DNA of 64,000 nt. Origin: an uncultured Dehalococcoidia bacterium (GTDB lineage Bacteria; Chloroflexota; Dehalococcoidia; Lucifugimonadales; CATOSD01). Below are positions 51,234-60,439 of the stretch, piece by piece. The stretch is from the NCBI GenBank assembly GCA_951812395.1, contig CATOSD010000002.1:1230442-1294441 (forward strand), given 5' to 3'. The notes below the pieces were generated by a model. That model saw only the letters and a program-made list of their open reading frames with translations. It was not told the DNA's origin and made no database searches. Positions within the stretch are counted from its first letter, which is position 1. Each line of letters opens with the position of its first letter. The position numbers were made by a program, and so were the translations under genes.

Positions 51234-51477
51234 CCGTCACGCAATGAGAACGCAGGTGCGAGTGCGGTAAGAACTGGAATCCTGCGCGTTGGCGTAGTTT
51301 AACCCGTTTCGCTAGCAGGCCCCTAGCGCATCGAAGGCGCGGTTCTACTGAGTTACGCCGGGAAGACTCCACTTACCACCGCACTTGACAGCGCGCCGTG
51401 TGCAAGGCAAGGTTAGCCGCATACCATCGGCACGCCAGGCCGGTGGAGGACTCCTAAGCTGAACGGAAGGTGAAGCC

Positions 51478-53166
51478 ATGCCAACCATCGAAGTCCTCAG
51501 CCCCGTCGCATCCAAGTACACCGGCCTCACGGTGCGTCCCGCGCCGCGGCTGGATACGCTCAACGGCAAGACCATTGGCCTCTACTGGAACCAGAAGTCC
51601 GGCGGAGACGTGGTGTTGGCCCGGCTCTCGGACCTGATACGCCAGCGCTTCCCAGAGGTGCAGTTCAAGAATTACACCGGCTCCATCGGCTGGGGCCGCA
51701 CCGTCGCCTCGGAAGAGGACATCGACCGCATCGCCGAGGAGTGTGAGGGGGTGATAGGCACCACAGCCGATTGAGGGGGATGCACGTCGTGGCTTGCCCA
51801 CGACACGGTAGCGGTCGAAAAGGCGGGTCTACCCGCCGTGGCCGTCGTAGCGCAGCGCTTCTCCTCAGCGTGGCGCACCAGCATATCGGCGTGGGGCCAG
51901 CCCTTGCTTCCCTCGGTCACCATTCCCAACGTAGTTGCGGGCCAGGACCATGACTTGATTCGCAGCATGATCGACGAACAGATCGACGGCATAGTCCGCG
52001 GGCTGCTCGACCCCGTCAGGGAGCCGGCCGCGGCTCCGGGCGCCAACGGCGCGGCGGGTTCCGTGGCAGTAGGCGGCGACGACTTCCTGGCGACCGTGGA
52101 AGCGGTCAACAAACTGTTCCTGGACAGGGGTTGGGGCGACGGCTTCCCCGTAGTGCCGCCCACGCCGGAGGCCGTCGAGCGTATGCTCGGCGGCACGCGA
52201 CGCGACCCCCAGGACGTCGTGTCCATCATGGAGCCGGGCTTTGGCATAGCCAGCGTAGAGAAACTGGCGATAAACGCGGTGATGGCAGGATGCCGGCCAG
52301 AGCACCTGCCAGTTCTCATCGCGGCGGTGGAGGCGCTGGCCGAGCCCGACTGCATCCTCCGCGAGATGCAGGTGTCCACGGTGCCCGAGGCCCCACTGAT
52401 GATAGTCAACGGCCCTATCGCCAAGCGGCTCAGCATCAACGCAGGCACCGCGGCGATGGGACCGGGCGCGATCAACTACGCCAATACCGTGATTGGCCGG
52501 TCACTGCGCCTCTCGCTGATGAACATCGGCGACTGCTATCCCGGCGAGGCGGACATCAACACGATGGGCCTTCCCACCAAGTACAGCATGTGCATAGCCG
52601 AGAACGAGGAAGCCAGCCCCTGGACACCCTACCACGTGGACAAGGGCTTCCGGCCCCGCGAAAGCACCGTAACAGTGGTCGCGGTCTCAGGCGTGGGCTC
52701 CATAGTGGACGTGTCCAGCAACAGACCGGAGACGATCCTGGACGGCGCCGCTTCCGCCCTGCACTTCACCGGCAGCGCACCCATGGGCGACTGGCTCACC
52801 GGCGGCAAGATAAACCCCGCCATAAACAAGAAGGTGCTCGCCCAGCACACGCTGTTGGTTGCGCCGGACCACGCACGCATCATCGCGCAAGCCGGCTGGG
52901 ACAAGACGGATGTGCGCAACTACCTGCACCGCATGGCGCGGCTGCCGTTTAAGACGATGTACGGCGACGGCAATATCAAGCGCGACGAGCTTGGCAACTG
53001 GTACGACCGACCGGACCTACAGTGGCTGGAGAACTACCCCGACGTTGAGGTGCCCATCGCCGCAAGCCCGGACTCGTTCATCGTGGCGGTCGCGGGCGGC
53101 CTCGGCAACGTGAGCGAGTTCTTCTGGGGCATTTACGGCTCGGCCACGAAGGCCGTCGAGGCTTAG
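51478..53166 (+). CDS. UGSC-family (seleno)protein with in-frame UGA, fused to a long C-terminal domain
   Basis: The reading frame from ATG 51478 (GGAAGGTG about 5 nt upstream) is interrupted only by TGA 51772-51774 and goes on, in the same frame, to TAG 53164-53166: 562 residues with UGA as codon 99. The site reads GTTAD-U-GGCTSWLAHD, which matches the UGSC motif of a known selenoprotein family with one change (Gly for Ser). The pattern of a beta strand, then U-x-x-C-T, then a helix and GLPAVAVV resembles the active site of GrdB-type reductases (inference). Residues 1-180 are the UGSC domain; after an Ala/Gly-rich linker (about 182-205) comes a 355-residue domain with DRGWGDGFPVVPPTPEAVER. 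A hairpin follows the UGA. Cytosolic. Substrate unknown. Confidence 0.85.
51786..51804 (+). promoter_or_regulatory. Candidate bacterial SECIS hairpin of the UGSC gene
   Basis: Eleven nt after the UGA, GTCGTGG pairs with CCACGAC (7 bp, perfect) around the loop CTTGC. Loop distance from UGA is 18 nt. The loop lacks an early G, so it fits the consensus less well than the redoxin hairpin. Confidence 0.55.
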
Positions 53167-57364: not shown

Positions 57365-58090
57365 CTACGGCAGCTCCAGGCCGTGGGACTCGAGCAGTTC
57401 CTGATCGGCGAGAATCTCGGCGGTTGGGGCGTCCGCCACTATCACGCCGCCGTCCATTATAATCGACCGGGGAAACACTTCCTTGACCATGTGCATGTCG
57501 TGCGTGGTGATCAGGATGGTCTGTTCCAGCCCGTCCAGAAGGGTAATCAGCCCCCGGCGCGCCCTGGGGTCCAGGCCGGCGGACGGCTCGTCCAGCACAA
57601 GCACCCTCGGTCGCATCGAAAGGACCGTCGCTATCGCTGCACGCTTCTTCTCTCCACCGCTCAGGTGGAACGGCATCCTCGTATCGTAGCCTTCCAGACC
57701 GACCTGGCCTAGCGCAAGCTTGACTCGCTCGTCGATCTCCTGTTGCGGCAGTCCCATGTAGATAGGGCCGAACGCCACGTCGTCGTACACCGTTGGCGAG
57801 AAGAGCTGATCGTCGGGGTCCTGGAACACCAGCCCCACAAGCGAGCGGATACGGGCGAGCGTCTTCTTGTCGTCCTCGACTACGCGCTCGCCCATCACCG
57901 ATACCTCGCCGTGGCCGTGCATGAGGCCGTTCAGATGGAGCAGCAGCGTCGACTTGCCGGCGCCGTTCGGGCCGAGGATGGCCACTTTCTCGCCGGCCCC
58001 GAGCCGGAAGCTCACGCCGCGCAGCGCCTCCCGCCCGTCCGGATAGGCGAATTGCAGGTCCCGCACCTCCAGCGCCGTCTCGGCGATCAC
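57365..58090 (-). CDS. cbiO: ECF-type cobalt/nickel transporter ATPase CbiO
   Basis: A 241-residue ATPase that energises cobalt or nickel uptake. GTG at 58090 overlaps the cbiQ stop by the GTGA tetranucleotide, so it is translationally coupled. Walker A GPNGAGKST near residue 41, Q-loop GLVFQDPDDQLF near 84, signature LSGGEKKR near 142, and VLDEPSAGLDP near 162 are clear. The frame remains open upstream to 58972 through the cbiQ region, but that extension is shadow. Its partners are CbiQ and the CbiM-type subunit upstream in the same operon. Confidence 0.93.
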   Translation of the reverse strand: MIAETALEVRDLQFAYPDGREALRGVSFRLGAGEKVAILGPNGAGKSTLLLHLNGLMHGHGEVSVMGERVVEDDKKTLARIRSLVGLVFQDPDDQLFSPTVYDDVAFGPIYMGLPQQEIDERVKLALGQVGLEGYDTRMPFHLSGGEKKRAAIATVLSMRPRVLVLDEPSAGLDPRARRGLITLLDGLEQTILITTHDMHMVKEVFPRSIIMDGGVIVADAPTAEILADQELLESHGLELP

Positions 58091-58869
58091 ATCAGCACCC
58101 TTGCGGACACGGCGACGGTGGCGAACAGGGCGAGCGCCAGGCACGTCGCCGCGACTGCGTGGCGGCTCACCGGCGGCGTCTCGCGCTGGCGGATCGTGCC
58201 GTCGTAGCCGCGGGCCAGCATTGCCATGTAGATGCGTTCCGTGCGGTCCATCGTGCGAATGAATAGCGACCCGGCCATCCCGCCAGCGCTCTGAGCACGC
58301 CAAACAATGGAGCCGCCCGAGCCTCTGCCGACGCGCGCGCTCCGGGCGGCCCTGGAACGCATCATGCGCTGGGCCTCGTCCACCAGAACGAACAGGTACC
58401 TGTACATGAGCATGACCACCACGACCAGAATCTGGGGAATCTTGAGCGCCCTGAGCGCCGCCAGAAGCTGAAACGCAGGCGTGGTCGACGTGAGCACCAC
58501 GGCGGCGGTCACGCTGGCCCAGGACTTTATCATAACGCTGGCGAAGAACTCCACGCCTTCGACGGTCCCTGTCAGCGTGAACAGCCCGAACGTTAGGTCG
58601 AAGAGGGGGTCCCCCGGCTTGGTGAACACCGTGGGCAGCGCGATCATGATGAACGGCAGCGCGATCAGCGAGCGCAGGAACACGCGGCCCAAGCCCACTC
58701 CGGCTAGTGCCGCCGCAACCCAGACCAGCCCCACCATGATGCCGAACGCGGGCCATTTGCCGGGCGGCACAGAGGTCGTGGCGAAGATGAAGGCGAGCAC
58801 GGTCACCAGCTTTACTCGCGCATCGGCCCGGTGGAGGAAGCTCTCCCCCTCGAGATAGCGGTCTAAGAC
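58087..58869 (-). CDS. cbiQ: ECF-type cobalt/nickel transporter permease CbiQ (start codon unclear)
   Basis: An integral membrane coupling protein of about 260 residues, with five or so helices and the coupling motifs RSRAARSAR and RTERIYMAMLARGYDG that contact the ATPase. The conserved N-terminus LDRYLEGESFLHRADARVKL is encoded from 58869 on, overlapping the end of the CbiM-type gene by 7 nt. No ATG, GTG or TTG lies before it in the frame. The first usual start is GTG 58806, which would drop 21 conserved residues. An ATT 12 nt further upstream or a frameshift from the preceding gene are alternatives. Confidence 0.85.
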   Translation of the reverse strand, partial: VLDRYLEGESFLHRADARVKLVTVLAFIFATTSVPPGKWPAFGIMVGLVWVAAALAGVGLGRVFLRSLIALPFIMIALPTVFTKPGDPLFDLTFGLFTLTGTVEGVEFFASVMIKSWASVTAAVVLTSTTPAFQLLAALRALKIPQILVVVVMLMYRYLFVLVDEAQRMMRSRAARSARVGRGSGGSIVWRAQSAGGMAGSLFIRTMDRTERIYMAMLARGYDGTIRQRETPPVSRHAVAATCLALALFATVAVSARVLM

Positions 58870-59915
58870 GCCGGCGGTGGAAATTGGTCTGCCCTGGTCC
58901 TGCCCCGGTTGGCGGTGGCCCTGTACACCAGGTACGCCAAACCGGCAAACAGGACGTACACCGCGGTGACACCGATCAATCCGGCGAGAATCGTAGCGAC
59001 GGCTTCGTTCTCGATACCCGGTACCGCATAGTCGGCGATTATGCCATAAGGCGCGTCCAATGCGGTCTCGATGAAGCCCTGATCTTCCGCTACGCGCTCC
59101 AGGCCGTCGGGCGAGCCGGACGCGAGGGGCGCGAGCAGTGTTACGCCGACAGCGATCAAGTAGCCGACTATCAGCACGCCTCGCAGGCCAATTCCGCGCC
59201 TCGAAGCCGGCGTAGGTTTGGAGTCCGCCTCACGGCGCACCTTGAGCAGTTCCGGCCGCGCCGCCAGTATGAACGTCAGCGCGAACACCGTGATCAGCCC
59301 CTCGCCGATACCTATCAGCGCGTGCACGCCGGCCAGCGCCGGCAGTGCAAGCTGAATAGGCGACGTGCCCGACGCCGCGAGCTGGAATGCAGCCAGCACC
59401 GCGGCCGCCATTACGGACACCCACGCGGCCGCGAATCCTCCGACGACCAGGGTCTTCTTTGCCGACGCCCCAATGAGGCGAACGGCGGCGTAGACTCCAT
59501 ATCCGGCCAGCACGCTCACGATGGACATGTTGAACAGGTTTATGCCGAGCACCACCAGGCCGCCGTCCTGGAACAGCAGCGCCTGCAGACCGACCACCGC
59601 GGTCATCACCAGAATGGCCGCCCATGGCCCAAGAATGATGGCCGCCAGCGCGCCGCCCACCAGGTGGCCGGACGTGCCGCCGGCCACGGGGAAGTTGATC
59701 ATCTGAGCGGCAAAGATGAAAGCGCCCATCACGCCCATCATCGGAACCATGCGCTCGCTCAGCTCGCGGTTCGTCTGACGCGCGGCGAAGGCGATCACCA
59801 ACGCAACCACGACGTAGCCCGCTATGGCCAGGGGGAGGCTGAAGAAGCCGTCCGGGGCGTGCAGCGGCGCCCACGAATCCCACCTGGGAATGTTCACGCC
59901 GATGCTCAGATACAT
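58863..59915 (-). CDS. cbiM: ECF-type cobalt/nickel substrate-binding subunit, CbiM-CbiN (PDGLE) fusion
   Basis: A 350-residue membrane protein. The N-terminal CbiM part has HAPDGFF, the metal-binding motif of CbiM/NikM, and HLVGGALAAIILGPWAA and NMSIVSVLAGYGVY. The C-terminal part has the CbiN-like PDGLE motif (SGSPDGLERVAEDQGF) and a final helix. Metal is bound by the N-terminal amine and the second-residue His in NikM structures; the ATG at 59915 would put 18 residues before that His, whereas CTG 59864 would make M-H-A-P-D-G-F. A start at CTG is therefore possible. The Fur-family gene ends 22 nt upstream. Metal (Co or Ni) is not decidable. Confidence 0.85.
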   Translation of the reverse strand: MYLSIGVNIPRWDSWAPLHAPDGFFSLPLAIAGYVVVALVIAFAARQTNRELSERMVPMMGVMGAFIFAAQMINFPVAGGTSGHLVGGALAAIILGPWAAILVMTAVVGLQALLFQDGGLVVLGINLFNMSIVSVLAGYGVYAAVRLIGASAKKTLVVGGFAAAWVSVMAAAVLAAFQLAASGTSPIQLALPALAGVHALIGIGEGLITVFALTFILAARPELLKVRREADSKPTPASRRGIGLRGVLIVGYLIAVGVTLLAPLASGSPDGLERVAEDQGFIETALDAPYGIIADYAVPGIENEAVATILAGLIGVTAVYVLFAGLAYLVYRATANRGRTRADQFPPPAS

Positions 59916-59937
59916 AAGGTGTGCTTCTTTCGGCGGG

Positions 59938-60381
59938 CTAGCTGCCGCCCTCGTCGTCAGAGTCGCGGCAACTGCTGCAATGACCGAAAACCGCGAGGTG
60001 GTCGATGTCCACCTCAAAGCCGTAAGTTTCGAGTATGTTCTCGCCCAGCGACTGGAGTAGCTCCTGGTCGAGCAAGGCGACGCCTTCGCATCCCTGGCAA
60101 ACCAGGTGGTGGTGCCTGACCTGATCGATCCACTCGTAGGTGTGCTGGTCCCCACCCATGTGGGTTTCAGAAACGAGGCGCATCTGTTTAAGCATGTCGA
60201 GCGTTCTATACACCGTCGAGAGATCGATGAAGGAATATGACTCCTTCACCTGCTCCAGCACCTCTCCCGCCGTGACGTGACCCGGCGCGTGTCGCAGCGC
60301 GGACAGAATCATCATCCGCTGCGGCGTCGGCCGGTGGCCCGACTCCTTGAGTCTCTCGATTATCTGGTCTTCGCAGCTCAT
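59938..60381 (-). CDS. Fur-family metal-responsive repressor
   Basis: A 147-residue regulator with a winged helix (RPTPQRMMILSAL, STVYRTLDMLKQM) and the Fur metal sites HHHLVCQGC (about 91-99) and GHCSSC near the C-terminus, forming a Cys4 structural zinc site. ATG 60381 is preferred to a longer frame from 60423. It heads the ECF operon, 22 nt before the CbiM-type gene, so it probably controls cobalt or nickel uptake (Nur-like) or another metal. A clear promoter lies upstream, and the palindrome TGCAA-N4-TTGCA at 60473-60486 may be an operator. Confidence 0.9.
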   Translation of the reverse strand: MSCEDQIIERLKESGHRPTPQRMMILSALRHAPGHVTAGEVLEQVKESYSFIDLSTVYRTLDMLKQMRLVSETHMGGDQHTYEWIDQVRHHHLVCQGCEGVALLDQELLQSLGENILETYGFEVDIDHLAVFGHCSSCRDSDDEGGS

Positions 60382-60410
60382 GTTCGCTTCCGCCAATCGT
60401 CGCGAGGCCA

Positions 60411-60439
60411 AACATAGCACCACAGCCAGAGCACGTCAA
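60411..60439 (-). promoter_or_regulatory. Promoter of the Fur-ECF operon
   Basis: On the minus strand TTGACG (60439-60434) and TATGTT (60416-60411) are 17 nt apart. The transcript would start about 23 nt before the fur-type ATG. Confidence 0.7.

Follow-up and report, generated by a model that had tools for sequence, protein, structure and literature searches.

A UGSC-family selenoprotein of a Dehalococcoidia bacterium fused to the constant partner domain of its family, with a probable remote link to selenoprotein B

UGSC proteins were reported among the most abundant selenoproteins of aquatic metagenomes, with 255 members in the GOS survey, and a fusion of UGSC with a conserved, function-unassigned domain, Unknown_1, was published in 2008 in Fig. 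S1A of the same paper (PMC2398784). In the selenocysteine (Sec) enzyme glycine reductase, protein B binds the substrate, the Sec attacks the carbon, a thiolate cleaves the resulting selenoether to give a selenenylsulfide, and thioredoxin supplies the electrons (PMC10298544). The fluoroacetate reductase FarB/FarE likewise combines a GrdB-type Sec protein, a partner, and a transporter within a single operon, and its substrate is not an amine (PMC10838667). The gene described here lies in a window of 64,000 nucleotides (the whole stretch of DNA that was analyzed) and resembles each of these systems in part. Its features are as follows.

51478–53166, forward strand: complete selenoprotein gene, 562 amino acids, Sec as residue 99, TAG stop at 53164–53166.
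51465–51473, forward strand: purine-rich stretch GGAAGGTGA immediately 5' of the ATG, read from the sequence; a plausible ribosome-binding site.
51490–52005, forward strand: UGSC domain (PF24696), residues 5–176, predicted Rossmann/flavodoxin-like α/β fold with the Sec at the N-terminal end of a helix.
51772–51774, forward strand: UGA codon for selenocysteine 99 in the motif U-G-G-C, with Cys102 as the putative resolving residue; assigned from homologues and the Sec machinery.
51786–51804, forward strand: SECIS-like hairpin within the coding sequence, with a 7-bp stem and a loop of 5 nt, beginning 11 nt past the UGA.
52021–52071, forward strand: Ala/Gly/Pro-rich linker, residues 182–198, from the translation; the lowest-pLDDT block of the model.
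52072–53163, forward strand: partner (D) domain, residues 199–562, C-terminal, modelled with AlphaFold.

The initial annotation joined two open reading frames (51478–51774 and 51838–53166) into one gene, and this is confirmed from the frame and from the translation with TGA as U: the two share a common frame, the TGA at 51772–51774 is the sole intervening stop, and the gene is otherwise open from 51478 to 53166, an extent that full-length relatives support. The membership in the UGSC family proposed at the same time holds as well, with PF24696 matching residues 5–176 across the UGA (E = 1.8e-29, 103.5 bits against a gathering score of 25). The NCBI equivalog NF041046 scores 92.9 bits, below its 125-bit cut-off, and the relative L031, which has a literal UGSC, also falls under that cut-off (109.8 bits). 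The window protein thus belongs to the Pfam family but falls outside the equivalog of NCBI. It shares the full-length domain, the position of the Sec, and the UxxC arrangement with the UGSC family of the GOS and Sargasso surveys, and it differs in a Ser-to-Gly exchange that is common in the family, in the missed NF041046 cut-off, and in the fused D domain.

The Sec site of the window protein reads TTAD-U-GGCTSWLAHD, with U-G-G-C in place of the literal U-G-S-C. This had been put forward as noteworthy, yet it ranks second in frequency among the motifs of 124 Sec members, 74 of which carry UGSC, 19 UGGC, 18 UGTC, and 6 UGAC; with UGGC in 19 of the 124, the literal U-G-S-C does not define the Pfam family. 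The nearest relatives, all from Chloroflexota (L043–L046), have UGGC without exception, and the same motif occurs in Beta- and Deltaproteobacteria. The window gene is an added member of a known selenoprotein family, and its novelty at the level of the gene is modest. The Sec/Cys-G-x-C motif is retained in ~95% of the aligned members. Five members lack both Sec and Cys at this position, so the motif can be lost. Such Sec/Cys-less UGSC-D paralogues were seen at L120:3280–12076 and L097:5892–9686, and the L120 copy adjoins a glycyl-radical enzyme and a radical-SAM protein.

The AlphaFold model of the whole protein has a pLDDT of 94.9 and a pTM of 0.94, with the lowest block (pLDDT 67) at residues 181–190 in the linker. 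Strands and helices alternate in the N-terminal domain, and the Sec is situated between a core strand (residues 91–97) and a helix that starts at residue 100. The PDB fold matches of the UGSC domain are weak and are mainly Rossmann- or flavodoxin-like α/β domains. As modelled, the UGSC domain is not thioredoxin-like, contrary to what the literature has assumed. Sequence searches of the PDB with full-length, UGSC, D, and GrdB profiles gave no credible match, and PADLOC assigned no defence family.

A resemblance to GrdB reductases had been noted from the order of elements around the Sec, and profile searches support it at the family level. Among 20 UGSC domains, 13 match TIGR01917 (GrdB), the best at a weak E-value of 8.2e-7, and there are also matches to GrdF (10), TIGR01918 (8), GrdH (8), and PrdB (7). 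Against TIGR01917, L031 reaches 13.2 bits, where the cut-off is 602. In a profile–profile comparison, UGSC aligned with the Sec half of nine Chloroflexota GrdB proteins over 87 columns, Sec on Sec, at a probability of 94.6%, compared with 0.1–5.4% in four control comparisons. The window protein itself gave no match at E ≤ 1 to the GrdB models, and likewise none to PF07355. The matches of PF07355 (GRDB) in L123–L131 stop at the residue just before the Sec; hence, this Pfam model comes without the Sec half, which leaves the UGSC–GrdB link invisible in Pfam; the sequences used to build it had probably been truncated at the UGA.

Judged from these profiles, the UGSC domain is, as a family, very probably remotely homologous to the portion of selenoprotein B (GrdB, GrdF, GrdH, and PrdB) that carries the Sec. 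The two systems share, besides this homology around U-G-x-C, the pairing of a Sec component with a partner, multiple paralogues within a genome, neighbouring transporter genes, and a link to thioredoxin. However, the Sec component of UGSC is much shorter and is without the N-terminal part of GrdB, and UGSC-D also occurs in presumably aerobic lineages. The D partner is unrelated to GrdE (probability of 0.1% in a profile comparison with PF09338 members), so the UGSC-D complex is not a glycine reductase. UGSC-D may work like protein B but is not protein B by the tests that define it, and, unlike FarB/FarE, it is not a true GrdB/GrdE-type pair.

The second long domain that had been described after an Ala/Gly linker is real, and full-length relatives align over both domains. 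No Pfam or NCBIfam family was found for the C-terminal 355 residues. AlphaFold predicts D alone with a pLDDT of 94.0 and a pTM of 0.93; a fold search with this model gave no convincing relative among PDB structures (best match E = 5e-4, TM-score 0.25) and no match in a viral fold library, and D is possibly a new fold when this model is compared with PDB structures. A kinship of D to class I fumarase and cyclic amide hydrolases was considered and dropped because profile comparisons with fumarase and with the cyanuric-acid hydrolase AtzD were nil.

The distribution of D follows that of the UGSC domain (U). In 40 related genomes, surveyed with the sensitivity of one protein query, both are present in 17, neither is present in 23, and one alone is present in none; the copy numbers of the two per genome agree within one. 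For 26 of the 34 separate U genes, a D gene lies within 1 kb on the same strand, with a median gap of 170 nt. The 80 fetched loci gave 72 fusion calls, versus 39 U and 50 D genes that stand separately (L107 offers one such U/D pair); the count is biased toward fusions, as loci were ranked by their similarity to a fused query, and some loci overlap. Fusions, together with many adjacent U/D pairs, occur across phyla, and the fused state requires 10 changes on the D tree versus 46 for shuffled labels. Up to five U/D pairs stand in a row within 17 kb (L048, L049, and L062). By these sequence patterns, D is the constant partner of UGSC proteins, either fused or encoded in the next gene. With so many fusion calls, and with the UGSC/Unknown_1 fusion already in PMC2398784, the fusion is not the novelty it had been taken for; D is likely identical with Unknown_1. 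At L084:2464–4930, a DUF6282 gene sits between a separate U and a separate D gene, and an amidohydrolase-like gene (by eye) follows them.

The gene neighbourhoods are rich in importer components. Substrate-binding proteins (SBP_bac_5 and TctC) account for 32 of 88 immediate same-strand neighbours versus 14 of 278 ORFs more than 3 kb away, with an odds ratio of 10.8, or 6.7 without the most copy-rich genome, and MmgE/PrpD and TPP enzymes are also recurrent neighbours. TrxR-like neighbours were seen in four loci only. L047 (3–7243) has the order selA, selB, TrxR-like gene, and UGSC-D; in L109 (4951–11208), selB and a TrxR-like gene are divergent from UGSC-D and selA; in L105, a TrxR-like gene comes after UGSC-D; and in L056, from a Mycobacteriaceae MAG, a TrxR–thioredoxin fusion lies upstream of a Cys version, followed by a substrate-binding protein, two Opp-type permeases, and an OppD-type ATPase. 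In both L047 and L109, selA, selB, and the TrxR-like gene are placed directly around UGSC-D, as though this selenoprotein and the Sec machinery had travelled together. The JACPQD010 contigs of a groundwater Chloroflexi MAG (L048, L049, L050, L062, L098, and L104) carry many tandem UGSC-D copies that alternate with genes for SBP_bac_5 lipoproteins; for one genome, this is a selenoprotein expansion of unusual size. Beside the window gene lie MFS transporters, a NUDIX gene, and a gene resembling FAA hydrolases, and none of these turned up as a recurrent neighbour; the window gene adjoins neither a TrxR nor a substrate-binding protein.

We lean modestly toward the reading that UGSC-D is a thioredoxin-fed reductase that handles small molecules taken up by an importer in the manner of protein B of glycine reductase, and that the window gene fuses both halves of a widespread two-component enzyme. 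An importer would supply a small molecule, which would bind at the U/D interface, with D probably binding the substrate. Sec99 would be the nucleophile, attacking a C–N, C–O, C–halogen, or C–S bond, or else accepting oxidising equivalents; Cys102 would resolve the intermediate as an Se–S bond, and thioredoxin would restore the selenolate with electrons from NADPH via thioredoxin reductase. By analogy, the logic of protein B would fit UGSC-D, with Sec99 as the nucleophile, Cys102 as the resolver, D as the substrate partner, and Trx/TrxR as the donor. We infer the reductive chemistry, the binding of the substrate by D, and the role of thioredoxin as electron donor, the last from the TrxR-like genes in L047, L109, L105, and L056. 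Counted against this reading are the lack of a TrxR or substrate-binding-protein neighbour at the window gene, the lack of a GrdB match for the window protein, the unrelatedness of D to GrdE, the low number of loci (four) with TrxR-like neighbours, and the Sec/Cys-less members that keep much of the conserved set of D.

More tentatively, and with somewhat less than even confidence, UGSC-D might form a large unrecognised branch of the selenoprotein-B type, in which a minimal Sec domain and a new-fold partner, fed by NADPH and thioredoxin, have radiated in Chloroflexota, Proteobacteria, Actinomycetes, and other groups, some of them presumably aerobic, into many substrate-specific copies for catabolising compounds that the cell imports. 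The functional assignment appears new, and its main value lies in the family rather than in the single gene: the constant partner, the link to the glycine-reductase type, and the TrxR/importer operons make the function-unassigned UGSC family testable. If true, selenoprotein-B-like chemistry would reach beyond anaerobic amino-acid fermenters.

The metagenome papers imply a different role, in which UGSC would serve as a general oxidoreductase of thiols and selenols, whether thioredoxin-like, peroxidase-like, or detoxifying, with D as its auxiliary domain for redox or substrate. We consider this unlikely, though it deserves some weight: the Rossmann/flavodoxin-like model, with fold matches that are not thioredoxins, stands against the listing of the family among thioredoxin-like oxidoreductases with UxxC motifs in PMC2398784. 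The same paper states conserved Cys for the fused Unknown domains, and two Cys residues of D (272 and 372) are indeed ~80% conserved, but the profile matches point to selenoprotein B, and the paralogue arrays that alternate with substrate-binding proteins suggest metabolic substrates. It is more doubtful still that catalysis lies mainly in D, acting for example as a hydratase, lyase, or hydrolase, and that the Sec domain merely activates, regulates, or regenerates it, as the retention of Sec/Cys-G-x-C in nearly all members would be improbable for a dispensable regulator. Invariant residues are more numerous in D than in U and include acids, Arg, and Asn; D221, N266, R341, E375, and W382 are among the conserved positions of D, and some Sec/Cys-less members retain much of its conserved set; the faint fold similarity of D to class I fumarase and cyclic amide hydrolases, however, comes with TM-scores of ~0.25 or less and with nil profile comparisons for fumarase and AtzD.

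Comparative sequence evidence makes it virtually certain that 51478–53166 is one selenoprotein gene in which the UGA at 51772 is read as Sec. In the 40 related genomes, 8 genes besides that of the window align across the two domains and contain a single TGA, and 2 more distant full-length matches have a TGA plus one additional stop; full-length relatives from the same order as the window retain a TGA. A UGA occupies the site in all 124 Sec genes compared, the window gene included, and a TGA does so in most of the 80 loci of a broader contig collection, which were found by an alignment-based scan of genome contigs, a single-protein scan of the same collection giving no matches. Six homologues have a Cys codon instead, with hosts comprising Nonomuraea, a Mycobacteriaceae MAG, another actinomycete MAG, Sphingomonas, and the haloarchaeon Natronomonas; L052, L054, L056, L075, and L092 read CGSC, which aligns the in-frame UGA with Cys. 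The genome of the window encodes a tRNA-Sec with the anticodon UCA, SelA (447 bits), SelB (above its cut-off), and a SelD (L167, C1:1530968–1531885) with one in-frame TGA, which is thus itself a selenoprotein. A second match to the tRNA-Sec model in this genome is a tRNA-Ser.

Among the close full-length relatives, none carries a TAA or TAG at this position. Conservation begins at residue 2, not at 51838. The reading of the UGA as a true stop between two separate genes, the second from the GTG at 51838, has a negligible probability: mechanical ORF calling does yield two ORFs, but it is contradicted because homologues keep the whole frame across the site, with a TGA or a Cys codon there, and also by the PF24696 match that runs across the UGA and by the Sec machinery in the genome.

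The perfect 7-bp hairpin reported 11 nt downstream of the UGA is exact in the sequence, with the arms GTCGTGG (51786–51792) and CCACGAC (51798–51804) around the loop CTTGC (51793–51797), and its position is conserved in 122 genes. In these 122 Sec genes, the hairpin at the same offset pairs in 82% of the cells, versus 22–51% with the 3' arm slid by 1–3 nt. The energy of the window hairpin is ordinary (z of −1.1 versus shuffles and −0.2 versus synonymous recodings), and the synonymous-recoding test is modest overall, with a mean z of −0.94 for Sec genes and −0.34 for 6 Cys genes. An Rfam search at the site found no RNA family. At codon 8 after the Sec, where it is fourfold degenerate, the third base tracks its pairing base, with 52 G–C and 20 C–G pairs versus 5 G–G and 1 C–C mismatches; the Fisher p of 5e-13 counts sequences rather than events, with relatedness left in, and a tree-aware covariation test had two independent pairs, too few for power. 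As far as these sequence comparisons reach, the support for the hairpin is its conservation and not its folding energy. Elsewhere in the window, at 57365–60423 on the reverse strand, ORFs that by eye look like a metal transporter of the ECF type (CbiM/CbiQ/CbiO-like) lie beside a Fur-family regulator (FUR).
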